A DNA stretch of 38,036 bases from a virus, in IMG/VR virus record IMGVR_UViG_3300021960_000206, positions 1 through 38,036 of that record; one strand, 5' to 3'. The notes under the pieces were generated by a model that saw only the letters and a list, made by a program, of their open reading frames with translations, had not been told where the DNA came from and made no database searches. The translations under genes and the position numbers were made by a program. Shown one piece after another: positions 6,019-37,493 of the stretch; the first letter of the stretch is position 1; every line of letters starts with the position of its first letter.

Positions 6019-9000
6019 ATGGCAACATTAATTCAAAGTAAACAGATAGAAGGAGTAGTAACCGCCTCCGTCATACATGGTGAATTTTTAGTAAGTGGTT
6101 CACTTGTTGTAACGGGTTCTCAATCCGTCTTAGGAGCAGTAACCGCATCTTCTATATCTTCTTCATTTAGTGGAGATGGTAGTGGAATTACCAACATCAC
6201 ATATTCTCAAATTGAAAATACCCCACAATTTGTTGGTGGTAACAATATTACAATTACCTCTTCATCAAATGTAATCACAGTTCACGCACAATTAGATGGA
6301 ACTGGTTCAGATGCACAATCTCTTTCTATTAGTGGAGACCAACTTACTATTTTAGGTGGAAATACAATAACTATCCCAACAGGTAGTGGTGTTTCTGATT
6401 ATACACAATTAACAAACGTACCAAGTGGTATTATAAGTGGTAGTTCACAAATTACCATTACTCAATCACAAATTAGTGATTTATCACACACAGATATCTC
6501 ATCACTAAACACATTTAGTGCTTCAATACAAAGTGAGGTTGATTCTTTAACCGCAGCAACTTCATCTTATTTAACACAAGTTCCAGCAGGAACAATTTCA
6601 GGTTCTGAACAATTACCTGCAGGATTAATTAGCGGTTCATCACAAATTACTATAACTCAATCACAAATTAGTGATTTATCTCATTATAGTGATTCTGATG
6701 TAAAAATAAAATTAGATACAGAAGGAGTACTTAGTGGTTCTTTGGTATCTCAACTACCAAGTGGTTTAATTAGTGGTTCAACGTTTACTGATTACAGTTC
6801 TTCTATAAAAACTGAATTATCAGATGTAAGAACTGATTTAATAACTCAGTTCACCAATAATGACAATGCACTTGAATCAAAAATAACAAACATACAATCA
6901 TTTACTTCATCTATTCAAAGTGAAGTAGATTCGTTAACTTCTGCAACATCATCTTACCTTACAACTGTCCCAAGTGGTACGATTTCTGGTTCAGAACAAT
7001 TACCACAAGGTTTAATTAGTGGAAGTTCACAAATTACAATTACTGAATCTCAAATCTCAGACTTATCGCATTATACAAATTCAGATGTTCAGAGTTATAT
7101 TGATTCAATTGGTGTAGTAAGTGGTTCTGTTATAGCAGAACTACCAAGTGGAGTAATCTCTGGTTCATCACAAATTACTATTTCATCTTCTCAGATTTCT
7201 GATTTAGCTCACACACAAATACCAAGTGGTACTATATCGGGTTCTGAACAACTACCAAGTGGTTTAATTAGTGGTTCTATAACCGACCAATTACCAAGTG
7301 GAGTAATTTCCGGTTCATCACAAATAACAATTACTGAATCACAAATTTCTGATTTATCTCATACAGATATTTCAAACCTTAACACATTTACGAGTTCAAT
7401 ACAAACTCAAGTAGATGGATTATCTGCAGCAACTTCATCATACCTAACTTCAATCGATAGTGGTATTATAAGTTCATCTGCACAAGTAACTGATTTACTT
7501 CCAAGTGGAATTATTAGTGGTAGTTTACAATTACCAAGTGGAATTATTAGTGGTTCTTCCCAAATTACAATTACTGAATCACAAATTTCAGATTTAACTC
7601 ATTATACTGATTCTGATGTAAAAACAAAATTGGATGTTGAGGGAGTAATTAGTGGTTCTACACAAATTACTGATGGAAGTGGAATCGTTTCTTCATCTGT
7701 ACAAGTAATATCTCACTTACCAAGTGGTGTTATAAGTGGTTCACTTGGTACTTTGGTTTCATCTTCAGTAAATTTGCTAACAGAAGTAAGTGGTGCAAAC
7801 TATGAAGTAAGTGGTGCAAACTATTTAGAATCAAAATCAGTAGATTCAAGATTAGATGCCATTGAAGGAAGTTTTGGAAATTATTACGATGTATCTAACA
7901 CAGTATGGAATAATAAATATATTAGACCAGGTTCTGAACATTTTTCAGATAGTTCAACTTGGAATATTAATGAGGGTGTAAATCTATTTACATTTACCTT
8001 AAATAACGATAGAACTTTACATTACGATGAAGGTAAAATTCTTTTCATTAAAAACTTTGATGGAGATGTAAGATTATCTGTAACTCCAGTAACTGGTTCT
8101 GATGGTGTATATTACAATACTGGTAGTAGAGAAGTAACATTTAGAGTTTTAGAAATTAATGGAGAAACAACTTCTTCAAATATAACAAGAATTAATGATT
8201 CATATTGGATTTTATCAAGACATACTGCAGGATTTGTAGATTCTGCTTCTTATGTTGAAACATCTGCATCAATAGATGACCAATTCAAAGCAATAGCAAA
8301 TGCTGGAGCTGGTGCTGATTGGGATGTAAACTTATTTAACATTCCAAGTGGAATTATAAGTTCATCTCAACAATTATATTCTCCATCAGTAGAGGCCGGA
8401 TTGGCAACTACTGCATCTTTAAATGAGGTATCATCTTCGTTAAATACAAAAATAGAAAATGTTTTCTTATCATCTTCTAATTTTGACAATAAAACATTAG
8501 TTAGTGGTTCATCACAAATTGATTTAAGAAGTACAACAAATTATGTTGCAGATGAACATATAGACCACACGACTGTTACAATATCAACAGGAGATGGTTT
8601 AGTTGGTGGTGGTGATATTGCAAGTTCAAGAACGATATCATTAAATAATACATCATCTTATTTCCAAGCAGGAGTACAACGAGTATTAGATGAGTATGGA
8701 TTCCCACTATCAACAACATATACAACAGATTCTGCATCATTTGATATAAGAATCAATAGTATTTCCGCAGGTTTAACACCAGCAGGAACAGTTAGTGGTT
8801 CATCTCAAATTGATATCACTCAAACACAAAATTATACAACATTTAGTTCATCTATCGCAACTTCTATTGCAGGTGCAAGTGGTGCATCATCATGGGGAGA
8901 GCTAAGTGGAATTCCGAGCGGATTAGTATCATCATCTATTCAAGTATTAGGTGGAACTGATATTCTTAGTGGTTCTCATCCAATTGGTAATTTAAATACA

Positions 9001-12000
9001 TTTACTGAATCAGTTCAATCACAAGTTGATGCTTTAATTGCAGCAACTTCATCTTTCTTAACAAGTGAAACTGATTCACAAACACTTTCTATTGTTGGTG
9101 ACCAATTATCAATATCAAGTGGAAATACAATTACTATCCCAACAGGTAGTGGTGTTTCTGATTTCACTCAATTAACCAATGTACCAAGTGGATTAGTATC
9201 ATCTTCAGAGCAAGTATTAGGTGGTAGTGGAATAACATCAGGTTCGGTATTAACAACTTTAGATGGTACAGGTGTATTATCCGCATCGGTTGATTTTGCT
9301 ACATACTCATCATCTGTTGCAACCACAATAGATAATATTGTTCACACACAAATTCCAGCAGGAACTATTAGTGGTTCTTCGCAAGTAACTGAGTTATTAC
9401 CAGCAGGTGTAATTAGTGGTTCTACTCAATTACCAAGTGGAATCTTTAGTGGTTCGTTTATAGGACAAGGAAATGTAACCATAACTTCTGGTAGTGGTTA
9501 TGTAATCATAAGTGGTTCTGGTGGAAGTGGTGGTTCTTCTGATGTATCTTACGATGGTAACAGAGTAATATCTAACGAAGATTTAGGAGATTTATTCACC
9601 AATTCAGTAAATCCTGGTACAAGTGGTTCAATACAAGATTTCTTAAACGCAGTATTTTATCCAAACACAGCACCAAGTATATCAACTGGTAACCAAACAA
9701 TTGAAGAATATAGAACAAATGGTTCAACTATTGTAACTTTAAGTGGTACTGATCCAGAAGGACAATCAATTACTTGGGGAACTGGTTCTTCTTATACTGA
9801 TGATTTAGTTAGAGTAAGTAGTGTGGGTGTAATGACATTAAACGCATTACCAACTTCTGCTTCATTCAACACATCTGTTGTTGGTGGTGGACATGGACAT
9901 TTGGTTAAAGTAACTGCTACTGATTCATTCGGTACATCTACTGAAAAAGATATTTACATTATTGTAACTCCAAACGCAGCACCTATATTTAGAGAAACTT
10001 CTATAAGTGGTAATGAAATTACTTCTGTAACTTCAAACTTGAATGAAAATTCAACAAATGGTACATTAGTAAAAAGAGTTTACTTTACAGATGCAGAATC
10101 GGATGCAATAACAATTTATTCTTCATCAGTTGATAATAATCACTTTGCGATTACAAAATATTCAACTTATGTTGATATTACACAAAATACAAGTTCGTTA
10201 GATTATGAACAACAAACACAATATACATTTAGTATCTCTGCTTCAGATGAACATTATGTATCAGGTGAAGATTTGGATTCAATAACTTATTTACCTATTA
10301 CTGTAAATGTTACTGATAATTTAACTCCAACAGTATCAGACCAAACTCTTTCATCTATAAATGAAAATAGTTCAAATGGTGCAACTGTTGGTTCAATATC
10401 TGCAGCAGATAATGAAAGTGATACAATCACATTCAAAAACTTTGCATTACACCAATTACAATTAGATGGTGTTGTGGTTAGTAGTGGTTCTTATAGTGGA
10501 ACATCACAATTAACAGACCCACATGAAGAACCATTCCAAATGAGTACAGGTGGTGTGGTAACAAGAAAAACAGGTGTTTATCTAAACTCTGATTTAATTA
10601 ACAAATACATTTATAGAGTACAAGTAACTGATAACTTTAATGGTGATTCAAATGTTGCATTGGTAACAATCAATATTACAGATGATACACCAGCAACTCT
10701 TTCAGACAACTGGTCAGCAGGACCGTACATAAAAGAATCTGAATTAAGTGGTACAACTATAAAAACAACAAACTATGGTTCAACAACTGCAGATTATAAC
10801 TCAAACCAAAGTGGTACTTGGAGTTCATCTAACTCTGCAATATCAATCAACTCAAATGGTAACCTATCATTAAATGTTGATTTAAGTGGTTCGGTAACTC
10901 AAAGTGGTGATACTTTAGATTCAACAATTACATTTACAAATACTTTCGGTACAACAACTACTGATAATTTATCTGTAACAATTGTTGGAAACTCTGCACC
11001 AACTGCTACATTTACAGACCAAAGTTCTAACTTTAATACAAACTTGGCAACAACTGGTACAAACTTGGTAAGTGTAACAATTTCAGATGTTGAAGGAGAT
11101 ACCCCATACTCAATGTCATTGAGTGGAACTGGTGCATGGGCTATATCAGCAGTACCTCAAAATTCTAATTCATCTTCATATCAGATACAAGTAACACCTG
11201 ATACAGCATCGTTGGCAGCAGGTTCTTATTCTTATGATGTAAATGTAACCGATAACTATGGTGAATCAACAACTTATAGTGGTAGAAGTTTTACAATTGC
11301 ACAAGCTGGTTCTGGTACTATGACCGAAAATGGTACATTCTATATTATTGAATCTGCAACAAGTGGTGATTTAATAAGAATCAACTCAAGTGGTAGAACT
11401 GGTACACAAGGTGGAGTAGTAGTTTCTTACTCACCAAATTATGGTTCACAATCAGCAACCTCATTTGCATCTTCAAACCCACTAATCTCAATCAACTCAT
11501 CAACTGGTGTATTATCGGTTGGTACAGATATTAGTGGTAGTGGAAATACTAATGGTTCTATAATTGCATCAACTATAACTTGGACAGACCAATATGGAAA
11601 TAATGGTAGTGATACAATAGCAGTAAACATTACTAAAAACAATGCACCAACAGTATCATCTACTCAAACATTTAATGAAAATACAAACCAAGCAACTGGT
11701 TCATCGGAAATAGTTAGATTAAACTTAACAGATACCGAAGGTGATTCTATTTTATCAAGTGGATTATCTTGGACAAACTATAACACAACTTATTTTACAC
11801 CGAGTAACTCAACTGGTATAATGAAGTTGTTAGTAAACTCAACTTCAGTACCAGCAGGAACATATGATTACACTGCTTCAATTGAAGATGTACATGGATT
11901 TGAAACAAGATTACATAGTGGTTCTGTAACAATCTCACAAGCTGATGATGGAACACTTGGTGGAGATACATCAATCTACATTATAGAATCAGCAGAAAAT

Positions 12001-14073
12001 ACAGATGTATTTAGAGATGCGACTGGATATAATCAAGGAAATGCGGCACAAGTAAGTGTATCTTATTCACCATCGTATGGTTCACCTGTTGTAACAGAGT
12101 TTACTTCATCAAGACAAGGAATATCTGTTGATTCAAGTGGTAACTTAACTGCAGGATATGATTTTAGTGGTTCGGTAACGAGTACAGATTACACAAGTAC
12201 TGCACTTGCAAGTGATTCTACAAATAGTACATTATATGGTAAATCACTTCATGTAAATGGAATAAAAGTAGTACAAGGTGCAGCAGTTGGAGGGCAATCA
12301 GCAGTACCAGATGCATTTACTGAAAAAGTTGCTCAAATGATTAAACTGATGGTAACTTCATCAGGTGTAGATATCAATGATACCGACCAAGCAAATATGA
12401 TTGGAATTCTTAAAGGTGAAACTGGTACATGGCATAGTGGTTATCCAACTGCACAAAGAATTTTAAGAGGAGCAGGTTCGGATTACTCTCCAAACCCATT
12501 AATTGATTCTAATTACTCAAGTTATTCAGGTTTACAAAATTTCCAAGATTCTCACGCAACCGATGATATGGTTTGGTATCTAAACTCATCAGCTGCATCT
12601 GGTTCTGGTGATAATGATGCACAAGAAGTAATTGAACACATATTCCATACAATACATCAGTATGGGGTAAGAGGTGCAGTTAGTGGTTCATTTAATGGAT
12701 TATCTTGGGATCCTGAAACTGATTCAAATTGGAATACTCGTGAATTATATTACGCAATAAAAGAAGCCGTAGATAATAGTGTATTTGATATAAGTGGTTA
12801 TGGTGATGCAAGTTATAATACTGCATCAACATTTAAATTAATAGCAAAAGAATATCTTTACTTATTAAACTTTAATATGTGGGAATATTCTTCTTTATGG
12901 AGTGGAGGTTCATTATCACCAGAATGGAATGATAATTCAAGAACACCATCAGGTATTCAAACAAACAATCCATTAGGATATGCACTATATAACAAATATA
13001 TAAAACCAGTTTTAACTAAACCATCACTTTCAACTATTAGAAGTATATTCCAAGATGGTGATGTTGGTGACCCAACAATAGCAGGTTCATCAGGATATAC
13101 ACCAGAAGTTGGAACAGGATTAATTTCTAAAATAACATTTAGAGACCAATATGGAAACGTAGGTAGTGGTTCAGTAACTGCAACTGTATTTGGAAACTCA
13201 GCTCCATCAGCAACATTCACTGCAGCATCATTTAATACTGATGAAGCAATTAGTGGTTCAAACATTGGTAGTTTAACTGTAACAGATACAGAAAACAACT
13301 CACCATTTACAATCACACTTGCAGGAACAGATGGTGGTAAGTTTGATGTAAGTGGTAGTTCATCTCCATTTACAATTCAACCAACTGGTTCATTAGCAGA
13401 AGGTTCATACTCTATAAACATTACTGTAACTGATACTTATGGAGAGAGTATAACTTTAACAAACGAATCAATTACTGTGGAAGCAGCAGAAGTATTAACA
13501 ACAGTTTATATTTATCGTTCAGGGTATGGTTCAGATGCAGGATTTAGTGCGAACTATAACGCTGTAATGGGTGCAGCAACTCTTAATACAGATGTACCAC
13601 CTCAAGTAACTTCATATACTGCAAACACATCATCACCTTATTACAAATTTAAATCGGGTGATATTGGTAGTTCAACCATAACTTTAGCAGGAGGTGCTAC
13701 TGCAACATTAGCAGCAACTGTAAGTGGTTCGAGTTTAAATGCAGCAGTATCGGAATCAGCAGATAGTATAAGTTGGGCAAGTGCACAACAAACAATCATA
13801 TTAATACCATCTGGTTCTTCTATGAGCGGTGTTCCAACATCGATGACAGATGGAACTGGTGGTAGTACAGCAGGAGAATACGTTTTAGTAGAATATGCCG
13901 ATGGAACAAGTGCACCTTTAGGAGCAACTCCATCTGTAATTCATTCTATTGTGTTAGATTCGAGTAAAGATGGATATATTGAGTGGTTTGTTATTGGTGC
14001 AAAACAACAAAACAACGCAAGTTCAATGAGATTAAAAGTATTATCAAGTTCTGGTTCAATATCAGACTTTTAA
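6019..14073 (+). CDS. Giant fibre/adhesin with SGSSQI repeats, Ig/cadherin-like repeats and an inserted domain
   Basis: This 2684-residue protein is a probable host-binding fibre. Residues 1-1160 are Ser/Gly/Thr-rich, with many copies of a PSGxISGSSQI and TESQISDLSH unit that suggests an extended beta structure; a globular stretch interrupts it near residues 615-750. A Gly/Ser linker lies near 1160-1175. Residues about 1215-2050 and 2370-2505 hold tandem Ig- or cadherin-like domains, with recurring NAP and NSAP boundaries, VTD strands and DQYG motifs. Residues about 2055-2369 form an all-different helical insertion (annotated separately). The C-terminal 180 residues look like a separate beta domain. 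I see no Cys and no signal peptide. The start follows the upstream stop by two bases and has no good ribosome site, so it is probably coupled. Receptor and sub-fold are unknown. Confidence 0.85.
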   Translation: MATLIQSKQIEGVVTASVIHGEFLVSGSLVVTGSQSVLGAVTASSISSSFSGDGSGITNITYSQIENTPQFVGGNNITITSSSNVITVHAQLDGTGSDAQSLSISGDQLTILGGNTITIPTGSGVSDYTQLTNVPSGIISGSSQITITQSQISDLSHTDISSLNTFSASIQSEVDSLTAATSSYLTQVPAGTISGSEQLPAGLISGSSQITITQSQISDLSHYSDSDVKIKLDTEGVLSGSLVSQLPSGLISGSTFTDYSSSIKTELSDVRTDLITQFTNNDNALESKITNIQSFTSSIQSEVDSLTSATSSYLTTVPSGTISGSEQLPQGLISGSSQITITESQISDLSHYTNSDVQSYIDSIGVVSGSVIAELPSGVISGSSQITISSSQISDLAHTQIPSGTISGSEQLPSGLISGSITDQLPSGVISGSSQITITESQISDLSHTDISNLNTFTSSIQTQVDGLSAATSSYLTSIDSGIISSSAQVTDLLPSGIISGSLQLPSGIISGSSQITITESQISDLTHYTDSDVKTKLDVEGVISGSTQITDGSGIVSSSVQVISHLPSGVISGSLGTLVSSSVNLLTEVSGANYEVSGANYLESKSVDSRLDAIEGSFGNYYDVSNTVWNNKYIRPGSEHFSDSSTWNINEGVNLFTFTLNNDRTLHYDEGKILFIKNFDGDVRLSVTPVTGSDGVYYNTGSREVTFRVLEINGETTSSNITRINDSYWILSRHTAGFVDSASYVETSASIDDQFKAIANAGAGADWDVNLFNIPSGIISSSQQLYSPSVEAGLATTASLNEVSSSLNTKIENVFLSSSNFDNKTLVSGSSQIDLRSTTNYVADEHIDHTTVTISTGDGLVGGGDIASSRTISLNNTSSYFQAGVQRVLDEYGFPLSTTYTTDSASFDIRINSISAGLTPAGTVSGSSQIDITQTQNYTTFSSSIATSIAGASGASSWGELSGIPSGLVSSSIQVLGGTDILSGSHPIGNLNTFTESVQSQVDALIAATSSFLTSETDSQTLSIVGDQLSISSGNTITIPTGSGVSDFTQLTNVPSGLVSSSEQVLGGSGITSGSVLTTLDGTGVLSASVDFATYSSSVATTIDNIVHTQIPAGTISGSSQVTELLPAGVISGSTQLPSGIFSGSFIGQGNVTITSGSGYVIISGSGGSGGSSDVSYDGNRVISNEDLGDLFTNSVNPGTSGSIQDFLNAVFYPNTAPSISTGNQTIEEYRTNGSTIVTLSGTDPEGQSITWGTGSSYTDDLVRVSSVGVMTLNALPTSASFNTSVVGGGHGHLVKVTATDSFGTSTEKDIYIIVTPNAAPIFRETSISGNEITSVTSNLNENSTNGTLVKRVYFTDAESDAITIYSSSVDNNHFAITKYSTYVDITQNTSSLDYEQQTQYTFSISASDEHYVSGEDLDSITYLPITVNVTDNLTPTVSDQTLSSINENSSNGATVGSISAADNESDTITFKNFALHQLQLDGVVVSSGSYSGTSQLTDPHEEPFQMSTGGVVTRKTGVYLNSDLINKYIYRVQVTDNFNGDSNVALVTINITDDTPATLSDNWSAGPYIKESELSGTTIKTTNYGSTTADYNSNQSGTWSSSNSAISINSNGNLSLNVDLSGSVTQSGDTLDSTITFTNTFGTTTTDNLSVTIVGNSAPTATFTDQSSNFNTNLATTGTNLVSVTISDVEGDTPYSMSLSGTGAWAISAVPQNSNSSSYQIQVTPDTASLAAGSYSYDVNVTDNYGESTTYSGRSFTIAQAGSGTMTENGTFYIIESATSGDLIRINSSGRTGTQGGVVVSYSPNYGSQSATSFASSNPLISINSSTGVLSVGTDISGSGNTNGSIIASTITWTDQYGNNGSDTIAVNITKNNAPTVSSTQTFNENTNQATGSSEIVRLNLTDTEGDSILSSGLSWTNYNTTYFTPSNSTGIMKLLVNSTSVPAGTYDYTASIEDVHGFETRLHSGSVTISQADDGTLGGDTSIYIIESAENTDVFRDATGYNQGNAAQVSVSYSPSYGSPVVTEFTSSRQGISVDSSGNLTAGYDFSGSVTSTDYTSTALASDSTNSTLYGKSLHVNGIKVVQGAAVGGQSAVPDAFTEKVAQMIKLMVTSSGVDINDTDQANMIGILKGETGTWHSGYPTAQRILRGAGSDYSPNPLIDSNYSSYSGLQNFQDSHATDDMVWYLNSSAASGSGDNDAQEVIEHIFHTIHQYGVRGAVSGSFNGLSWDPETDSNWNTRELYYAIKEAVDNSVFDISGYGDASYNTASTFKLIAKEYLYLLNFNMWEYSSLWSGGSLSPEWNDNSRTPSGIQTNNPLGYALYNKYIKPVLTKPSLSTIRSIFQDGDVGDPTIAGSSGYTPEVGTGLISKITFRDQYGNVGSGSVTATVFGNSAPSATFTAASFNTDEAISGSNIGSLTVTDTENNSPFTITLAGTDGGKFDVSGSSSPFTIQPTGSLAEGSYSINITVTDTYGESITLTNESITVEAAEVLTTVYIYRSGYGSDAGFSANYNAVMGAATLNTDVPPQVTSYTANTSSPYYKFKSGDIGSSTITLAGGATATLAATVSGSSLNAAVSESADSISWASAQQTIILIPSGSSMSGVPTSMTDGTGGSTAGEYVLVEYADGTSAPLGATPSVIHSIVLDSSKDGYIEWFVIGAKQQNNASSMRLKVLSSSGSISDF
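12181..13119 (+). other. Unrecognised globular domain inserted in an Ig-like repeat of the giant fibre
   Basis: Residues about 2055-2369 of the giant protein break a repeat whose two halves match an intact neighbour: SISV- and GYDFSGSV-type strands come before it, and KITFRDQYGN comes after (intact copy TITWTDQYGN near 11577). The insert is mostly helical and rich in Trp, Tyr and His, unlike its surroundings. It contains EHIFHTIH (His 2207, 2210 and 2213), GTWHSGYPTAQR and DSHATDDMVWY. The grouped His and acidic residues could bind a metal, but there is no HExxH motif and I do not recognise the family. Confidence 0.65.
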
Positions 14074-20723: not shown

Positions 20724-23700
20724 ATGGCAGCAATATTACAATTAAGACAAGGTTCAACGAGTACTTATATCTCACAAGGACCTAACATAGCAGAACCTTT
20801 TTTTGATACTGGTTCCAATATTCTTGTTGTAGGTAAATCTGCTAGTGAAGTAATTAAACTTACAAAATTAGATGAATCAAACGCTGGTTCATTTTCTATT
20901 ACTGGTGATTATACTGGTTCAAACTTATATCTTAGTGGTGATTTAACTGCATCAAACGTAAATCTTAGTGGTGATATCACAATTGGTGGTAATATTATTT
21001 TAGGAGATGCAGTACAAGACAGCATTACAATATCAGGTCAATTTGATTCTGATTTAATTCCATCTGCATCAGCAACTTACGATTTAGGTTCTACAACTAA
21101 AAAATGGAATCATTTATACGCATTATCTGCTTCAATTGATTCAGTAGATTTGGTAGCAAATTTACCAAGTGGGGTAGTATCAAGTTCTGCACAAATATCA
21201 TTATTAGGATATGATAATTATGGTGGATGGTATGCACGAGGAGATAATAATAATGATTTATTTATATCATCGTATCAAAGACTTTATTTTACTGGTAGAA
21301 ATGGTATAATAACTGAAACTTTAGCTCCAGGTAACGAGTATGTATATTTTGATTTAGATACTGGTTCTGTTCATTTTACTGATGCAGTTGCTGGAGTAGG
21401 TGCACCAGCCGGAACTATTTCTGGTTCACAACAAGTAATTGATTTACTACCAAGTGGTGTAATTAGTGGTTCTACACAATTACCAAATGGTTTAGTTAGT
21501 GGTTCATCTCAAGTAGTTGAATCATTACCAACAAATACAGTAAGTGGCTCAGTACAAGTTCTTGGTGGAACAAGTATAGTTTCATCTTCAGTTCAAGTAG
21601 TATCATTCTTACCAAGTGGTACTGTTAGTGGTTCATCTCAAGTAGTTGATGTATTAACTCAAGTAAATTCATTTACATCATCACAAGATACAAAAAATAC
21701 AACATTAGCAACTTATACTGGTTCAGTAGATACATCTATTAGTTCTCTTAATTCGTTTACAAATTCATTTGATACTGCAATTTCATTAAACTCAAGTGAT
21801 GTAACAATATTAGGAAACTTAACAGTACAAGGAACACAAACTCAACTTAATACAAGTACATTAAATGTTGAGGATAAAAATATTTTACTTGCAAGTGGTG
21901 CAGCTGATTCTTCAGCTGCAAATGGAGCAGGTATAACAATTGATGGAGCAAATAAATCACTACAATGGGAACATAGTACAACTCAATTCGTATTTGATGC
22001 ACAAGTAAGTTCTTCAGTAGGATTTAAAGGAGATGGTTCTAACTTAACAGGTTTAACCGCAGATTCTGTTGAATATGATAACATATTAAATAAACCAACT
22101 CTTGTAAGTGGTTCAGACCAAATATTGGGAGGGAGTGATATAGTTTCATCTTCAACTCAAGTAACCAACTTTTTACCAAGTGGTACAATAAGTGGTTCAA
22201 CTCAAGTTCTTGGTGGTACAAGTATAGTTTCATCTTCAAATCAAGTTATAACTTATTTACCAAGTGGAACAGTATCGGGTTCAACTCAAATCATAGAAGT
22301 ATTAGAAGTACAAACACCAGGTTTAGTTAGTGGTTCAGACCAAGTAACTGCATCTTTGGATTCAAGATATGCTACTCTTGGTGGTAATAATTTATTATCA
22401 TCTTCAAATGAAAACTTCTCTGATTATTCACAATCGGTAGATACAAGATTATTAAATACTCTTTCAAGTGGTTCAGCAACATCACAATCACTATATACTT
22501 TAGTTGGAAATTTCCCAACAAGTGGTTCTTTAGGAACTTCGGCATTCTATAACGTATCATCTTCATTAGCAGATGACCCTAATACAATTCCAAACGTAAA
22601 AGCAGTTTATGATTACATTAATAATGTAGTTCAAGCAGCAGATATTACTGGTGTTTCTGCCTCATTTGGTTTAAGTGGTGGTGGAGATGCTGGATATGTA
22701 TCTCTTTCTTTGGATACCTCATCTCAACATTTTATAAATGGAGTTCAAGCTCAACAATCTTATTATGGTGGTTGGTACGCTGATGCTACCAATGGTTTAA
22801 ACCAACACATTTCTTCAGGAGAAAAACTATATTTTAGGGGAGATACTACCACGAATGATATCAGTACCACAATAACCCAACTTCTTGGTGTTAACTACAT
22901 TGAGTTCCAAATAAATACAGGTTCATCTCACTTTAGTAACGCAGTTGCAGCGATAGGTGCACCAGCCGGAACTGTTTCTGGTTCTCAACAAGTAATTGAT
23001 TTCTTACCAAGTGGGGTAATTAGTGGTTCAGACCAATTACCAAGTGGTATTATTAGTGGTTCTGCAATTTCAACTGATGGAACTGATTTAGTTGCAATAG
23101 GAACTTCTGTTGGTAACGTTGCTGATTTAGGAAGTGGTAATCAATTATCACTTTATAATAGTGGACTTTCAGGTATTCTTTCTTTTGATGATTCTGGTAC
23201 AGTTAAATCTTATGATTATGTTTCATCTAACGTAAGGTATGTAGATACAAATAGTGGAGTATCCATAGCAATTAAACCCGATGCAACCGCAACAAAAGCA
23301 TGGGTATTTGATACTGATGGAGATTTAGTATCCAATGGAGGAAGTTGGAATAGTGGTAATTTATACTCAAGTAATGTAATAGCAAGAAACGCGGTTACTG
23401 CATCCAATATGTTAGTTGATTTTAATATAACTGCGGATACTTTTATTGGTACTATTGCTGCTGATAATGGTGTAATTAGTGGTTCATCTCAAGTAATATC
23501 TTCGTTACCAAGCGGAGTAGTTAGTGGAAGTTCTCAAATTACAATTACTGAATCACAGATTTCAGATTTATCTCATACAGATATTTCAAATCTTAATACA
23601 TTTACAGGTTCATTTAATAGTGCTATTTCATTAAACTCAAGTGATGTAACAATATTAGGTAACCTTACAGTACAAGGTGATACAACACAACTTAATACTG

Positions 23701-24485
23701 CAACATTGAATGTTGAGGATTTAAACATTACATTAGCTTCTGGATCTGCTTCATCGGCTGCAGCGAATGGTGCTGGTATTACAGTAGATGGAGCGAGTGC
23801 TACACTTACTTACGCATCAACTGGTGATAAGTGGGTATTTAACAAGGTAGTAGATGTACCAACAAGTGGTATTTTAATCAATGGTACGGCAGTAACTTCA
23901 ACTGCAGCAGAACTTAACCAATTAGATGGAGTAACTGTTGGAGGAACAACTGCAGGAGATATTGTAACAATCGATGCAACACAAACTCTTACTAACAAAA
24001 CTATTTCAGCAGCACAAGTAACTGAAATCAGTAACTTAACAGCAGATGAAGGTGCACAATTAGAAAATATTGGTACAACAACAATATCTGCAACTCAATG
24101 GGGATATTTGGGTTCATCCAATCAAGGAATCGCAACCGGTGATGATGTAACCTTTAATACTGTATCCGCAACTGGTGATATTGTTGCTTACGCATCCTCA
24201 GATAGAAGATTAAAAGATGAAATTCAACCGATTTCTGACCCAATTTCAAAAATAAATTCAATTGGAGGGTATTCTTTTGTTTGGAATACTGAAAAACAGA
24301 ATATTTATAATGGTAAAGATTATGGTGTTATAGCTCAAGAAATCGAAGAAATCCTACCAGAGTTGGTACAGACACGAGAAAATGGGTATAAAGCCGTAAA
24401 ATATGATAAGTTAGTATCACTACTTATCGAAGGTATTAAAGAACTTTCTAAAGAAGTTCAAGAATTAAAGAAAAAAATTAATTAG
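20724..24485 (+). CDS. Tail fibre protein with C-terminal peptidase S74 chaperone domain
   Basis: This 1253-residue fibre starts with MAAILQLRQG. It carries YDLGSTTKKW and GDGSNLTGL modules, two copies of LTVQG(T/D)TQLNT-type modules, many VSGSSQV repeats, and an internal duplication of a YGGWYA domain (21204-21480 and 22764-23040). An AAELNQLDGV block and ISATQWGYLG lead into the chaperone. The S74 domain starts at S1159-D1160 (SDRRLKDEI). It contains GYSFVWN, DYGVIAQEIEEILPELV, and a coiled-coil end. In this family the domain trimerises the fibre and then cuts itself off just before the Ser, with the Ser-Asp pair essential; both are present. A tail of about 95 residues should therefore be released. 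Confidence 0.9.
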   Translation: MAAILQLRQGSTSTYISQGPNIAEPFFDTGSNILVVGKSASEVIKLTKLDESNAGSFSITGDYTGSNLYLSGDLTASNVNLSGDITIGGNIILGDAVQDSITISGQFDSDLIPSASATYDLGSTTKKWNHLYALSASIDSVDLVANLPSGVVSSSAQISLLGYDNYGGWYARGDNNNDLFISSYQRLYFTGRNGIITETLAPGNEYVYFDLDTGSVHFTDAVAGVGAPAGTISGSQQVIDLLPSGVISGSTQLPNGLVSGSSQVVESLPTNTVSGSVQVLGGTSIVSSSVQVVSFLPSGTVSGSSQVVDVLTQVNSFTSSQDTKNTTLATYTGSVDTSISSLNSFTNSFDTAISLNSSDVTILGNLTVQGTQTQLNTSTLNVEDKNILLASGAADSSAANGAGITIDGANKSLQWEHSTTQFVFDAQVSSSVGFKGDGSNLTGLTADSVEYDNILNKPTLVSGSDQILGGSDIVSSSTQVTNFLPSGTISGSTQVLGGTSIVSSSNQVITYLPSGTVSGSTQIIEVLEVQTPGLVSGSDQVTASLDSRYATLGGNNLLSSSNENFSDYSQSVDTRLLNTLSSGSATSQSLYTLVGNFPTSGSLGTSAFYNVSSSLADDPNTIPNVKAVYDYINNVVQAADITGVSASFGLSGGGDAGYVSLSLDTSSQHFINGVQAQQSYYGGWYADATNGLNQHISSGEKLYFRGDTTTNDISTTITQLLGVNYIEFQINTGSSHFSNAVAAIGAPAGTVSGSQQVIDFLPSGVISGSDQLPSGIISGSAISTDGTDLVAIGTSVGNVADLGSGNQLSLYNSGLSGILSFDDSGTVKSYDYVSSNVRYVDTNSGVSIAIKPDATATKAWVFDTDGDLVSNGGSWNSGNLYSSNVIARNAVTASNMLVDFNITADTFIGTIAADNGVISGSSQVISSLPSGVVSGSSQITITESQISDLSHTDISNLNTFTGSFNSAISLNSSDVTILGNLTVQGDTTQLNTATLNVEDLNITLASGSASSAAANGAGITVDGASATLTYASTGDKWVFNKVVDVPTSGILINGTAVTSTAAELNQLDGVTVGGTTAGDIVTIDATQTLTNKTISAAQVTEISNLTADEGAQLENIGTTTISATQWGYLGSSNQGIATGDDVTFNTVSATGDIVAYASSDRRLKDEIQPISDPISKINSIGGYSFVWNTEKQNIYNGKDYGVIAQEIEEILPELVQTRENGYKAVKYDKLVSLLIEGIKELSKEVQELKKKIN

Positions 24486-25178: not shown

Positions 25179-27587
25179 ATGATTATACACAGTCCCATAA
25201 TTTCAGGTTCGTTAACATTCGCAGATGGAGCAACCTTTACGTTACCAGATAATGGTCAATATTCTGGTTCATTTAGTGGTTCAGCACAATTTAGTACTAT
25301 TGGTTCAGACCTTATACCTGATACATCAGGAGCTTATGACTTAGGTTCTGAGGCATACCCATTCCAAGACCTTTGGTTAGTTGGTAATACCGCAAATATT
25401 GGTGGTATTTCACTTGGAGTAAGTGCTGGTGGATTGAACATTAAAAATAAATCAACTGGTAATGCAGCTCCAATTGCAGCATCAACTATAACCATTGGTG
25501 GTATTCTTGGTGGTGTTGGAACTAAATCATTCAAATTAAACAATGATGGTGAGATAGAAGCACAGGATGAAAACGGAGCTGCAACAGCTGTCGTTGCTTC
25601 TTCTTTAATTGTATCAAGTAGTAATGGTGCAGTAACCATGAGTGTAGATACTAATGGTGAAGTAGTTACAACTACATCAGCTGGAGGTCAAGCATCTTCA
25701 AACATTTCTGGTTCATTCACAGGTTCAGTACAAGATTTAGTAGGTAATGGTAATGCAACATTTAACGATGCTGTAACCGTAAGTGGTCTATCCTCACTTG
25801 ATGGTGGTATTGATGTAGATGGAGTATTTACAGTTGCTGATTCAACTGGTAACGTTGCAACAACAGGAACTCTATCCGCAGGAGCAACAACTGTAACTGG
25901 TTTAACCGCAAATGGAAGTATTAGTGGTTCTGGCACTTTATCCGCTGGGGCAACTACTTTAACTTCAACTGTTGATGTAACTGGATTAGCAAGTTTAGAT
26001 GGTGGTATTGATGTAGATGGAGCATTTACAGTAGGAGATACAAATGGTAATGTTGTAACAACAGGTACAATCACAGTACCAGAAGGAAACTTAACAATTG
26101 GTTCAACCGCAGTTGATGCAACCGCATCAGAACTTAACTTATTAGATGGTTCAACCGCTGGTACAGTTACCAACTCGAAAGCAGTAGTATATGGTTCAGG
26201 TGGTGAAGTAAACGCTACCAAACTACAAGTTGGAGGAGTTGATATTACCGCAACACCTGCAGAACTTAACTTATTAGATGGTGTAGCTGGATTAGTTCAA
26301 TCAGATTTCACTAAATTAGCAGCAATTGAAGTAACTGCAACTAAGATTAACTACCTAACAGATATGACAGGTAATGTTAAGGAATACATCGATAATGAAG
26401 TAGCTGGTATAGTTGATTCAGCACCTGGTACTCTTGATACTCTTAATGAGTTAGCAGCTGCACTTGGTGATGATGCAAACTTCTCAACTACTATTTCTAA
26501 CACAATCGGTGGTAAAGTATCACAATCATTACAAGTTATTGCAGGAGATGGTTTAACTGGTGGTGGTAATTTAACCACAGATAGAACTTTAAATGTTGGT
26601 GGTACAGCTAATAGAATTTCAGTATCTGCAGATGCAGTTGATATCGCTTCAACATATGTTGGACAGACATCAATTACAACTTTAGGTACAATTGCAACTG
26701 GTGTTTGGCAAGGTACGACTATCGCATCAGAATACTTAGATGCAGACCCACTACCAGTTGGTTCGGTATCAGGTTCATCTCAAATTGTATTACAAGATGC
26801 TAACAAAACTGGATTTACAGGTGCTTCTTCAATTACAACTTTAGGTACAATTACAACTGGTACTTGGAATGGTACTGCAATTGCACATGATTATATTGGA
26901 TTAGATGCAATCGATGGTACAAACATCTCAGATGATGCAATTGATTCAGAACACTATGTAGAAGGTTCTATTGATAATATACACTTAGCAGGTTCAATTG
27001 CGGCTTCAAAAATTACTGAAATATCAAACCTAACAGCAGCAGAAGGTGAGCAATTAGAAAATATTGGTACAACTACAATCTCGGCAACTCAATGGGGTTA
27101 CTTAGGAGGAATGAACCAAGATGTAACTACTTCATCAAACGTAACATTTGGTAATGTAAATGGTGCGACTGGTACATTTACTGGTGACGTTATTGCATAC
27201 GCATCTTCTGATGAAAGATTAAAAGATAATATCCAAGTTATTAGTGAACCACTTCAAAAAATAAGTGAATTGAGAGGTGTAAAATGGGAATGGAATGATA
27301 ATGCAGACGCTATTCAAAAACAATTACCTACTGTTGGTGTAATTGCACAAGATGTAGAAAAAGTATTACCTGAATTAGTTCACACTAAAAGTGATGGATA
27401 TAAAGCAGTTGATTATCCTAAATTAGTTGCTCTTTTAATTGAATGTGTAAAAGAACAACAAAAAGAAATTGATGGACTTCACGCATCTCATCAAGAACAG
27501 AATAATTCTAATTCAGATATTTTGAATGGAATTTTATCGGATATCAATCAACTAAAAGATGATTTAAACGATTTAAAATCAAAATAA
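25179..27587 (+). CDS. Tail fibre protein without N-terminal tag, with C-terminal peptidase S74 domain
   Basis: This 802-residue protein opens directly in fibre repeats (SPIISGSLTFADGA) rather than the MAxI tag. It carries a YDLGSEAYPF block, two SSLDGGIDVDGxFTV-type repeats (25795 and 25993), and two ELNLLDG blocks. A GTLDTLNELAAALGDD helix and a LTGGGNLTTDRTLNVGG module come before the chaperone. The S74 domain starts at S677-D678 (SDERLKDNI) and includes KWEWND, VGVIAQDVEKVLPELV and a long coiled coil. Self-cleavage before S677 is predicted from the family. The missing tag suggests that it attaches through another protein, perhaps the short fibre just upstream. Tandem terminators follow. 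Confidence 0.9.
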   Translation: MIIHSPIISGSLTFADGATFTLPDNGQYSGSFSGSAQFSTIGSDLIPDTSGAYDLGSEAYPFQDLWLVGNTANIGGISLGVSAGGLNIKNKSTGNAAPIAASTITIGGILGGVGTKSFKLNNDGEIEAQDENGAATAVVASSLIVSSSNGAVTMSVDTNGEVVTTTSAGGQASSNISGSFTGSVQDLVGNGNATFNDAVTVSGLSSLDGGIDVDGVFTVADSTGNVATTGTLSAGATTVTGLTANGSISGSGTLSAGATTLTSTVDVTGLASLDGGIDVDGAFTVGDTNGNVVTTGTITVPEGNLTIGSTAVDATASELNLLDGSTAGTVTNSKAVVYGSGGEVNATKLQVGGVDITATPAELNLLDGVAGLVQSDFTKLAAIEVTATKINYLTDMTGNVKEYIDNEVAGIVDSAPGTLDTLNELAAALGDDANFSTTISNTIGGKVSQSLQVIAGDGLTGGGNLTTDRTLNVGGTANRISVSADAVDIASTYVGQTSITTLGTIATGVWQGTTIASEYLDADPLPVGSVSGSSQIVLQDANKTGFTGASSITTLGTITTGTWNGTAIAHDYIGLDAIDGTNISDDAIDSEHYVEGSIDNIHLAGSIAASKITEISNLTAAEGEQLENIGTTTISATQWGYLGGMNQDVTTSSNVTFGNVNGATGTFTGDVIAYASSDERLKDNIQVISEPLQKISELRGVKWEWNDNADAIQKQLPTVGVIAQDVEKVLPELVHTKSDGYKAVDYPKLVALLIECVKEQQKEIDGLHASHQEQNNSNSDILNGILSDINQLKDDLNDLKSK

Positions 27588-34539: not shown

Positions 34540-34863
34540 ATGTTTATAGAATCAGATAACATATTTACATTACAAAAATTAACATCGGCTAGAGATAAAA
34601 CTATTGTTATGTTTGGTGTTAATTGGTGTGAACAATGTGAATCTCTAAAAAAAGAGTTTGTAAAATTAGAACCAACTGAAAGAGAAAAAAATATTGATTT
34701 TATCTATTGTGATGTAGATAGAAATCAAAATATTTCAGAATTAGTAGAAATAGAAAAATTACCAACATTAGTTTCTTTCAATAGAACTAATGTAGTTTTG
34801 AAACACGAAGGTAAAACAAAAAAAGATATAATAAAAACATTAAAATCTTTAATAGGAATATAA
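34540..34863 (+). CDS. Thioredoxin-like protein with WCEQC active site
   Basis: This 107-residue protein has the size and order of a thioredoxin fold: a strand (TIVMFGVNW), the redox motif W29-C30-E31-Q32-C33, a helix, the strand IDFIYCDVD, a helix, and KLPTL with the expected cis-proline at P75. It would reduce, form or shuffle disulphides in the cytoplasm of the infected cell; no signal peptide is seen. The CEQC pair differs from the CGPC of bacterial thioredoxin and from the CPxC of glutaredoxins, so its redox potential and partners may differ. An AAGGA site precedes the ATG. It lies just downstream of the one fibre-like protein here with a Cys-bearing C-terminus. Confidence 0.82.
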   Translation: MFIESDNIFTLQKLTSARDKTIVMFGVNWCEQCESLKKEFVKLEPTEREKNIDFIYCDVDRNQNISELVEIEKLPTLVSFNRTNVVLKHEGKTKKDIIKTLKSLIGI

Positions 34864-35175
34864 ATGGACAGAGGTAATAAAAAAATAGCAGAAGCTAAGT
34901 TTTCAGACAATAGAAAAAAAATATTAAAAGCTGAAAAAATTATATCTGAGTTAAGGGGTTATAAGTTCACATGGAATGAAGGTCAAAACTCATATAAAGG
35001 AAACGATTATGGTTTTTTAGGAAATGAACTAAAAAACAATGAACATCTAAAAGATTTAGTGATTCATCAAGATAATACTCATTTCGTAAGATATGAATCA
35101 ATCGTAACTATATTAGTAGAGGCAGTTAAAGTTCTTCAAGAAAAAGTTAAAAATTTAGAAGAAAACCAAAAATAA
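34864..35175 (+). CDS. Free-standing peptidase S74-like chaperone domain
   Basis: This 103-residue protein aligns by eye with the S74 ends of the fibres at 20724 and 25179. S14-D15 begins SDNRKKI (SDRRLKDEI in the fibre), followed by a GYKFTWNE strand (GYSFVWN), NDYGFLGNEL (KDYGVIAQEI), a VRYESIVTILVEAVK helix (VKYDKLVSLLIEGIK) and a coiled-coil end. The fibre part is absent: only 13 residues precede the Ser. It may assist folding or trimerisation of a fibre in trans, or be the remnant of a lost fibre. The usual Leu-Lys-Asp after Arg is changed, so self-cleavage may be impaired. It starts directly after the thioredoxin stop codon with an AGGA site. Confidence 0.75.
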   Translation: MDRGNKKIAEAKFSDNRKKILKAEKIISELRGYKFTWNEGQNSYKGNDYGFLGNELKNNEHLKDLVIHQDNTHFVRYESIVTILVEAVKVLQEKVKNLEENQK

Positions 35176-36185: not shown

Positions 36186-37493
36186 ATGGCAAGAACTTCG
36201 GGTGACACTTTATCACTAAATAATTTAGCAGGAGCATTAGGAGCAACTCAAAATTCAAATGTATCTTTAAATGCTATGAATGGAAATGCTAATACTGCAG
36301 TTTCATTGGATAACTATGGAATTGACTCTGTTGATTCTATAACTGGATATAGATACATTGTTGAGGGAGATTCCGATACCTATGAATTGGGATTTTCTGG
36401 TGAAGGAAGTAAATTCACAAGTGTAAAAAGCAGATATCAAAATTTTACATGGTCAGTAGCTGCTGGTAGTTATATTTCTATTAGTGGAACTATAAATAAA
36501 CAAGCTACTGTAACAGCTTCTAACATGAACCCACAAAATCCAAGTACACAAACCGTTTTACAGAGTGCACAGGATAATACTATACGAGTTAAATTTAATG
36601 ACGGATTCAATGACCACGCTACAAACTATAATGTAAATAGAGATAAGACTGTAACTGCAGTTGATTCATATGATGGTAACTCAACCGCATTGTGTTTACG
36701 TTCCGATTCTCCTATCACAAAGGCAGATGGTACTATTGTAGAAATCGGTGATTTATCAGAAGGAGATTTATTACAAGGATTCCAAATTAATAATTTAGCA
36801 AAAGATTTAGATGGCCAAAGTAATTTTTTAAATTGGATGGAAGATGAGTTAACAGTAACACCTGTTGAAGTTGAGATAAAAAATCTTATATATTCTTTCT
36901 CAAATAAAATATATAATATTAATGATGGTGAAATTAGATGTACTATCGAACATCCATTATTAGTAAAAGATTCACATGAAAAATATAGATTCTTAGAAGC
37001 AAGAAGAGTTATTGTTGGAGACCACTTGATTAAGTATACAGAAAATGGTACTCAAGAAATAGAAGTAACTTCAATCGAGATTGAAACAGATGATGTTGAA
37101 ATCGTATCAATTGATGTTGCAGACCAAGATACTTATATGGTTAATGGGTATATAACTCACAATAAATCAGGAGATACTCATACTGATTTAGGTGCACCTG
37201 CTCAAGTAAGTGGTCTTTCGTTTTCAAACCCTAACCTAACTTGGACTGCGGTTAGTGGAGCAGATACTTATTACATTGAAATTGATGATGCATCAAACTT
37301 CTCATCGGTAAATACAACTTATAGTAATTGGAGTACAAATTCAATTAGAATAGGTCGTTCTTTCGATGCAGCAACAGAAAATATTTCACCAGTTGCACTT
37401 GCGGTAGGAACTTGGTATATTAGAATTAAAGCAATTGACCATGGACTGTTATCAGCGAACTGGTCATCTACTTTAACGGTGACTATTTCATAA
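36186..37493 (+). CDS. Structural protein with internal Hint (intein-like) domain and fibronectin-III-like end
   Basis: This 435-residue protein has three parts. Residues 1-169 are a Ser/Asn-rich beta domain (LSLNNLAGALGATQNSNVSL) of a type seen near phage tails. Residues 170-326 are a Hint domain: C170 at the start, a T253-I-E-H256 block B, EARRVIVGDHLI, and YITHN ending at H325-N326. Residues 327-435 include a fibronectin-III-like domain (APAQVSGLSFS to TVTIS). The residue after N326 is Lys, not Cys, Ser or Thr, so ordinary splicing lacks its last nucleophile and cleavage after N326 is more likely. No homing endonuclease is present. An AGGAG site precedes the ATG. A link to sheath or fibre assembly is inferred from position. 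Confidence 0.8.
   Translation: MARTSGDTLSLNNLAGALGATQNSNVSLNAMNGNANTAVSLDNYGIDSVDSITGYRYIVEGDSDTYELGFSGEGSKFTSVKSRYQNFTWSVAAGSYISISGTINKQATVTASNMNPQNPSTQTVLQSAQDNTIRVKFNDGFNDHATNYNVNRDKTVTAVDSYDGNSTALCLRSDSPITKADGTIVEIGDLSEGDLLQGFQINNLAKDLDGQSNFLNWMEDELTVTPVEVEIKNLIYSFSNKIYNINDGEIRCTIEHPLLVKDSHEKYRFLEARRVIVGDHLIKYTENGTQEIEVTSIEIETDDVEIVSIDVADQDTYMVNGYITHNKSGDTHTDLGAPAQVSGLSFSNPNLTWTAVSGADTYYIEIDDASNFSSVNTTYSNWSTNSIRIGRSFDAATENISPVALAVGTWYIRIKAIDHGLLSANWSSTLTVTIS
36693..37163 (+). other. Hint / bacterial intein-like domain
   Basis: The region encodes C170 to N326, 157 residues, mini-intein size. Visible blocks are the N-terminal Cys followed by ITKADGTIVEIGDLSEGD, the TIEH block, and the terminal His-Asn. 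The next codon is Lys. This matches intein-like Hint domains that cleave rather than splice. Confidence 0.8.

Follow-up and report, generated by a model that had tools for sequence, protein, structure and literature searches.

A conserved, repeatedly relocated domain with a putative metal site interrupts an Ig-like repeat of a giant phage fibre

Introduction

A domain of 312 residues interrupts one Ig-like repeat of a giant fibre protein encoded in the window (the whole stretch of DNA analysed here, a 38,036-base IMG/VR virus record). Comparison of the window with its relatives has shown that the domain is a promiscuous in-frame cassette, repeatedly relocated among surface and tail proteins. 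Its nesting in host proteins, the matching empty sites and the repeated relocation are all shown, as is its association with S8 and other peptidases. The family is undescribed and unnamed when set against Pfam, PHROGs, NCBIfam, PDB, BFVD and the open literature. We infer the metal, the catalysis, the substrate and the display on the particle, and we hold with about even confidence that the domain is a virion-displayed metal-dependent hydrolase, carried as a mobile cassette and probably working with peptidases.

Tail-associated hydrolases govern how phages breach the surfaces of their hosts, and little is known about those of phages in the ocean. The present family is conserved, foldable and unnamed, and it occurs in isolated cyanophages, which opens its function to testing. 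Its characterization would name parts of many proteins now listed as "hypothetical" or "baseplate wedge" and offers a testable putative active site. The family also illustrates with unusual clarity how a single domain can be inserted again and again within other folded domains, even between the residues that form the catalytic site of a protease; close relatives show the empty sites.

The interrupted Ig-like repeat

The window carries T4-like head and neck genes (a major head protein, a head-tail adaptor and a weak match to a tail-sheath stabiliser), followed by fibre and baseplate-type genes. The giant fibre gene (6019-14073; Table 1) lies downstream of the T4-like major head protein and head-tail adaptor genes. 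Its product is made up of low-complexity collar repeats, a cadherin match (Pfam Cadherin, E 1.7e-11, residues 1340-1429) and Ig-like repeats.

An earlier note on this DNA had claimed that about 315 residues interrupt one of these repeats, and that the two halves can be rejoined against an intact neighbouring copy. Both claims were borne out. The insert was delimited to residues 2056-2367, and the rejoined halves scored 198 against the intact copy; 500 shuffles averaged 44 and reached 76 at most. Relatives of the fibre without the insert, which the note had proposed to look for, were also found. Three IMG/VR relatives on other contigs (L171-L173) are 73-76% identical to the window at the left flank and read "SGSVTQSGDT(F/I)(T/S)STITF" without interruption across the insertion point. 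At that point the window reads "DFSGSVTS[312 aa]LISKITFRDQYGN" and L172 reads "DISGSVTQSGDTFTSTITFDDQYGN". In a close relative (L001/L011), the insert occupies the identical position and is 91% identical. The edges of the insert are sharp, as the tblastn match to two bacterial copies (L008 and L009) spans 12184-13119 and no further; the alignment to L008 covers query residues 6-319 and then ends.

The insert was described earlier as rich in Trp, His and Tyr, and its composition agrees when compared with the rest of the fibre (Trp 2.2% vs 0.5%, His 1.9% vs 1.1%, Tyr 6.1% vs 3.4%). Nucleotide composition gives no sign of a foreign origin: GC and GC3 are 0.343 and 0.121 in the insert and 0.341 and 0.118 in the remainder of the gene. 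If the insert was acquired, it has by now been assimilated.

Table 1. Positions in the window of the fibre gene, the split repeat, the inserted domain and its invariant residues.
Feature	Position	Strand	Basis or remark
Giant fibre/adhesin-like virion protein, 2684 aa	6019..14073	+	ORF call; carries the insert
Intact neighbouring Ig-like repeat (reference)	11314..11652	+	Pairwise alignment
Left half of split Ig-like repeat, aa 1978-2055	11950..12183	+	Local score 140 vs intact copy; continuous in L171-L173
Inserted domain, aa 2056-2367, 312 residues	12184..13119	+	tblastn limits, empty sites, AF2 model
Invariant Lys K42	12325..12327	+	74/74; aligned with invariant His of LEExxH family, correspondence read from the alignment
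Invariant His H78, GT[WY]H motif	12433..12435	+	74/74; 60/60 in loci from first search
ExxEHxxHTxH (E142, E145, H146, H149, T150, H152), proposed metal site	12625..12657	+	Helix 136-156; 74/74
Invariant Glu-Tyr E217-Y218, proposed further ligand or acid	12850..12855	+	Helix 208-226; TEY in LEExxH family
Invariant EWxD (E241, W242, D244)	12922..12933	+	EW also in LEExxH family
Right half of split Ig-like repeat, aa 2368-2397	13120..13209	+	Local score 74 vs intact copy; 79% identical, continuous in L172

Fold of the insert and comparison with known families

Structure prediction showed the insert as a self-contained domain that is expected to fold alone. The AlphaFold2 model of the insert by itself (12202-13119, with 37 related sequences) reached a pLDDT of 91.4 and a pTM of 0.91. 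The modelled fold is alpha/beta and consists mostly of helix, so that the earlier description of a "helical" domain holds for its main content and gives way to alpha/beta for the fold as a whole. The model begins with a beta hairpin and a pair of helices. A strand, short helices and another strand lead to the motif helix 136-156, after which come helices 181-191 and 208-226 and, at the C-terminus, three more helices. A second model, in which the domain was nested between its flanks, gave a pLDDT of 84-98 over most blocks of the domain. The flanks were predicted as beta strands at low confidence (pLDDT about 30-55), too poor to show a closed Ig sandwich. The domain is thus modelled as a separate, non-fibrous unit and not as the continuous beta fold that had been named as the outcome counting against the proposal. 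The other such outcome, similarity to an already known fibre domain without catalytic function, was not seen in Pfam, PHROGs or Foldseek searches of PDB and BFVD.

The family had not been recognised from the sequence, and database searches led to the same result, with no convincing match in Pfam, PHROGs, NCBIfam, PDB sequences and folds, or BFVD. Nothing credible was returned by Pfam for the window domain and 36 relatives, or by NCBIfam for the window domain and seven family members. PHROGs gave 0 families for the insert and 0 for seven family members, and a known PHROGs fibre or tail domain was rejected as its identity. Searches of PDB by sequence and by profile returned noise alone, and no significant structural match to the model was found by Foldseek in PDB or BFVD. 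Several weak BFVD matches of low probability, to insect-virus proteins of 800-1000 residues, were not used. No plasmid matched the domain. No description of the family was found in the open-access literature searched.

Distribution in viruses

The domain was found by tblastn in 85 phage records, all of marine cyanophages, where identity is 48-51%. Among them are the T4-like marine cyanophages S-RIM2, S-RIM12, Syn33, S-B43 and RN05-S, whose copies match at least 80% of the domain length. Their carrier proteins are annotated as "baseplate wedge subunit/initiator" or "hypothetical protein", and the domain itself is without annotation there. The carrier in these phages is a different protein from the window fibre, and it adjoins gp9, gp8 and VrlC genes. 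A profile search of marine viral proteins with the insert had been suggested earlier; when run, it matched hundreds of IMG/VR loci. Three such searches confirmed 194, 322 and 336 loci in overlapping sets, amounting to more than 300 loci. Conservation at 41-91% identity across hundreds of loci argues that the domain is more than chance. Chromosomes of Verrucomicrobiota also carry it.

Invariant residues and a putative metal site

Invariance was assessed in 74 non-redundant members (less than 95% identity), with residues numbered by the modelled domain. All 74 keep K42, H78, P82, Q85, R86, D122, M123, W125, Y126, E142, E145, H146, H149, T150, H152, E217, Y218, N223, W233, E241, W242, D244 and K273, and these residues are retained in sequences down to 41% identity. 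The cluster EHIFHTIH, which had been noticed from the letters of the window, starts at 12634, lies within one helix and belongs to the invariant ExxEHxxHTxH. Of the "two more His-containing motifs" claimed alongside it, one holds an invariant His (H78, in GT[WY]H), and the second proved not to be invariant.

The second and third IMG/VR searches used patterns containing some of the invariant residues. The first relied on patterns that lie away from the His motif, and all 60 distinct rows from that search still show the motif in full. One exception was noted, a truncated partial copy (L003) with Cys in place of the third His (H152). The invariance in 74 members, together with that in the 60 distinct rows, resembles an active site more than a binding surface.

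In the proposed arrangement, E142, E145, H146, H149 and H152 would lie on a single helix face, and the long helix that comes next would contribute E217. This cluster, together with H78, K42, E241 and D244, would most likely form a metal-dependent hydrolytic active site holding one or two metal ions. Such a site may hydrolyse a protein or glycan layer of the cell surface. As the window domain hangs from an Ig-like repeat of the giant fibre, it would be displayed on the particle. A more specific proposal is possible, and we put it forward tentatively: a new enzyme superfamily of secreted bacterial origin, whose fold has no counterpart in the PDB library and whose metal site is of the ExxE(H)xxH type. 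It would serve marine phages as a plug-in catalytic module that arms the virion surface in fibres, baseplate proteins and the catalytic domain of subtilases. Against an enzyme stands the finding that neither fold nor sequence matches any enzyme in Pfam, NCBIfam, PDB or BFVD, and the invariant Trp, Tyr and Asp can equally serve binding or folding.

Zincins were considered as candidate relatives. In this group, strands are followed by a motif helix and a later helix with a Glu, an order that the domain loosely resembles, and E217 is a candidate third-ligand Glu, invariant on the predicted helix 208-226. An HExxH zincin was rejected by motif, as ExxEHxxHTxH is kept in 74/74 members and its i,i+4 pairs are Glu-His and not His-His. 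The zincin fold was rejected as well, as Foldseek returned no significant PDB match at a pLDDT of 91 and the best zincin had an E of 2.4 and a TM of 0.2. Matches to M1 and M60 were non-significant (E at least 2.4). M60 does occur as a neighbouring domain in one bacterial carrier.

Relocation among host proteins

Clustering of the flanks of 102 distinct carriers gave 22 host-context groups, and at least 28 changes of context were counted on a tree of the 74 domains, in which the context labels were automatic and in part imprecise and the SH-aLRT support came from a quick search. Several of the settings are within or beside subtilases. In the subtilase L016, the domain directly follows the Asp motif ("HPEFAIPI[domain]VTTDGSRVQQIDWF", then HGTH), and the subtilase of S-H38 reads "HPEFAVNVDGTGGSRVVEYDWF" at the same insertion point, with no domain. 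In L044, the L016-type site is empty and the domain precedes the Asp motif. The domain forms the C-terminal end of L023, after the Ser motif of a subtilase, and in L026 its place is downstream of the S8 domain, inside a Calx-beta-like stretch.

In Syn33, the domain sits between two pieces matching YHYH (the left one covering profile positions 89-139 and the right one 157-183), with about 180 residues between the left piece and the domain. A 3037-residue protein (L018) holds it amid CBM5/12 units and carries no S8, and a 334-residue ORF (L077), also free of S8, consists of the domain and little else. Further copies occur in Ser/Thr/Pro linkers and at protein C-termini. We suggest that the cassette inserts into loops exposed on virion proteins (fibre, baseplate and tail-protease) and leaves the host fold intact. 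Relocation of this kind would work if the ends of the domain lie close together, and the empty sites imply such closeness.

Such neighbours bear on another explanation, in which the domain is a non-catalytic adhesion module, possibly metal-stabilised, that binds a host-surface polymer and is swapped among fibre, baseplate and protease proteins to alter or strengthen attachment. It is the first of the rivals, which rank in falling order as binding module, protease partner and selfish cassette, and we consider it rather doubtful. The adhesive units beside the domain (Ig-like, CBM5/12, Ser/Thr/Pro linkers, PF16403 repeats), carriers that are likely to meet the host, and secreted cellular homologs with a Trp/Tyr-rich N-terminal part all accord with it. 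Receptor-binding modules, however, usually vary at the binding surface, and here no fewer than 18 polar or aromatic positions stay unchanged across the 74 members, a diverse set from many phages; the domain is also concentrated in peptidase-bearing proteins.

The cassette-like edges, the many insertion sites and the empty sites in close relatives would also fit a selfish in-frame element, intein-like or a homing cassette, with no function other than its own spread. This explanation is very improbable. An intein or Hint element was rejected because the boundaries in 34 carriers have no conserved Cys/Ser start and no HN-Cys/Ser/Thr end, and no Hint or nuclease profile matched the insert. Flanking repeats gave no systematic signal, the longest common string averaging 7.8 nt compared with 6.5 nt in shuffled flanks. 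Copies that are C-terminal, near-solitary, or secreted from a fixed chromosomal locus would be unneeded for selfish spread. Single cases resembling target-site duplications were seen at L008 (11 nt) and L044 (13 nt).

The YHYH domain (PF14240), tail-associated and with conserved His, has been predicted to be a Zn-dependent hydrolase (PMC7824862). YHYH domains may be the closest known analogues in role. Membership in that family was rejected, since neither the window domain nor 36 relatives matched the profile. The two domains share a phage protein in L005, with no sequence similarity between them.

Association with peptidases

An S8 peptidase is encoded in the same ORF as the domain in 56 of 78 complete carriers. 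The other 22 lack S8, as does the window fibre. By search, S8 was present in 35/48, 39/48 and 29/35 carriers; the first is the least biased figure, because the second and third searches were partly seeded with subtilase carriers. In at least 25 carriers the domain lies between the S8 Asp motif and the His/Ser motifs. Two bacterial carriers have other peptidases, M60 in L008 and a calpain-type C2 in L009. The insert itself was rejected as a peptidase S8 (no Pfam match, hhalign probability 0.5), and the marine-phage S8 subtilase, although its commonest host protein, is a container of the domain and not a relative.

The frequency of S8 and the position between its catalytic motifs raise the question of a subtilase partner, that is, a module built in to regulate S8, help it fold or clamp its substrate, with a conserved site that is structural. 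This is unlikely given the carriers in which the domain precedes the Asp motif (L044) or follows the Ser motif (L023, L026), those with no S8 at all (the window, L018, L077) and those with M60 or C2; subtilases such as that of S-H38 also manage without the domain. Under the favoured reading of a metal-dependent hydrolase, the domain would act in the same particle, and often in the same polypeptide, as the subtilase.

Bacterial relatives and the LEExxH family

The copies nearest to that of the window are on two Verrucomicrobiota contigs (L008 and L009), where the domain sits within PF16403 Ig-like repeats; they are 75-78% identical to it and are joined to it with 100% support. The domain was detected in 1 of 388 genomes of the Verrucomicrobiota phylum and in 1 of 289 in the order of genome G001. 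The order to which the Opitutae genome G002 belongs gave matches in 7 of 273 genomes, counting G002 itself. Five of the other matches are full-length proteins. Four are secreted proteins, 441-449 residues long, that begin with a signal-peptide-like stretch and have an N-terminal part rich in Trp and Tyr; the fifth, L260, has 738 residues and is encoded on a 338-kb contig. A queA-like gene adjoins the domain gene in L258, L259, L261, L262 and the partial L263, which points to chromosomal genes.

In L260 the domain is C-terminal, and the N-terminal half of the protein holds a second domain marked by an LEExxH motif. This half and L264-L270 form a second unnamed family of secreted bacterial proteins (LEExxHxxT...TEYxYW...EW). 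Profile comparison showed that the two families are distantly related, as judged at the level of sequence. The domain aligned to the LEExxH family by hhalign with a score of 45-47 and a probability of 83-85 over 213-215 colinear columns. Column-shuffled controls reached a score of at most 21 and a probability of at most 1.1, reversed ones about 15, and exchange of query and template gave a probability of 64 and a score of 40. Both families contain V(N/F)G, VPD, E..H, EY and EW. In the LEExxH family, Glu replaces H146, the third His is absent and there is an EF-hand-like DNDEDG loop, whereas the window family has variable D(P/S)xG-type loops and EHxxHTxH. The LEExxH family thus keeps part of the invariant cluster only. 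The shared core, together with the lack of the DNDEDG loop and of the LEExxH core motif in the window family, indicates a related but separate family. No Pfam match and no significant PDB match were found for the LEExxH family. Among its proteins, one with a YHYH-like region and another with an HEMGH peptidase-like motif were noticed by eye.

Relatives of the fibre insert

The closest copies of the insert in the window's giant fibre were found in two Verrucomicrobiota contigs (L008 and L009), where they form part of large proteins with PF16403 repeats and peptidases. This proximity hints at gene exchange between the virus and these Verrucomicrobiota, or at a host among them. In five viral loci (L080, L084, L158, L162 and L164), the domain is placed between linker blocks of giant proteins, and these linkers are long and composed of Ser/Thr/Pro ('TPTPS/TNTPT').

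A second undescribed secreted family was also observed (L260, L264-L270; L271, L272), characterized by LEExxHxxT...TEYxYW...EW and an EF-hand-like loop. Each genome carries several paralogs, and in two cases the LEExxH domain is embedded in a very long ORF on a viral contig. In L264, a single bacterial protein combines the LEExxH domain with a region that by eye looks YHYH-like, a parallel to cyanophage Syn33, where the window-type domain and YHYH occur together.

Fibre and structural genes of the window

The same C-terminal segment recurs in several fibre genes, and the product of 25179-27587 also carries an S74 chaperone domain. A 103-aa ORF consists of hardly anything more than this segment, much like a reserve copy of a tip module stored close to the fibre genes.

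The Hint-like region of the 435-aa structural protein is marked by ALC|LRSDSPI..., CTIEHPLL and ...VNGYITHN|KS and is followed by an Fn3-like tail. Its +1 residue is Lys, and therefore self-cleavage instead of splicing is possible.

Features of the window and of locus L264
Feature	Location	Strand	Match
Fibre genes and 103-aa ORF with common C-terminal segment	window 20724-24485, 25179-27587, 34864-35175	+	PHROG 8215/5668 and others
Small thioredoxin-like gene, surrounded by fibre genes	window 34540-34863	+	PHROG 22, E 4e-05
Structural protein, 435 aa, Hint/intein-like region	window 36186-37493	+	Pfam PT-HINT, E 4.6e-05, slightly under the cut-off of that entry
LEExxH protein with YHYH-like region	L264 1495-3873		YHYH-like region recognised by eye
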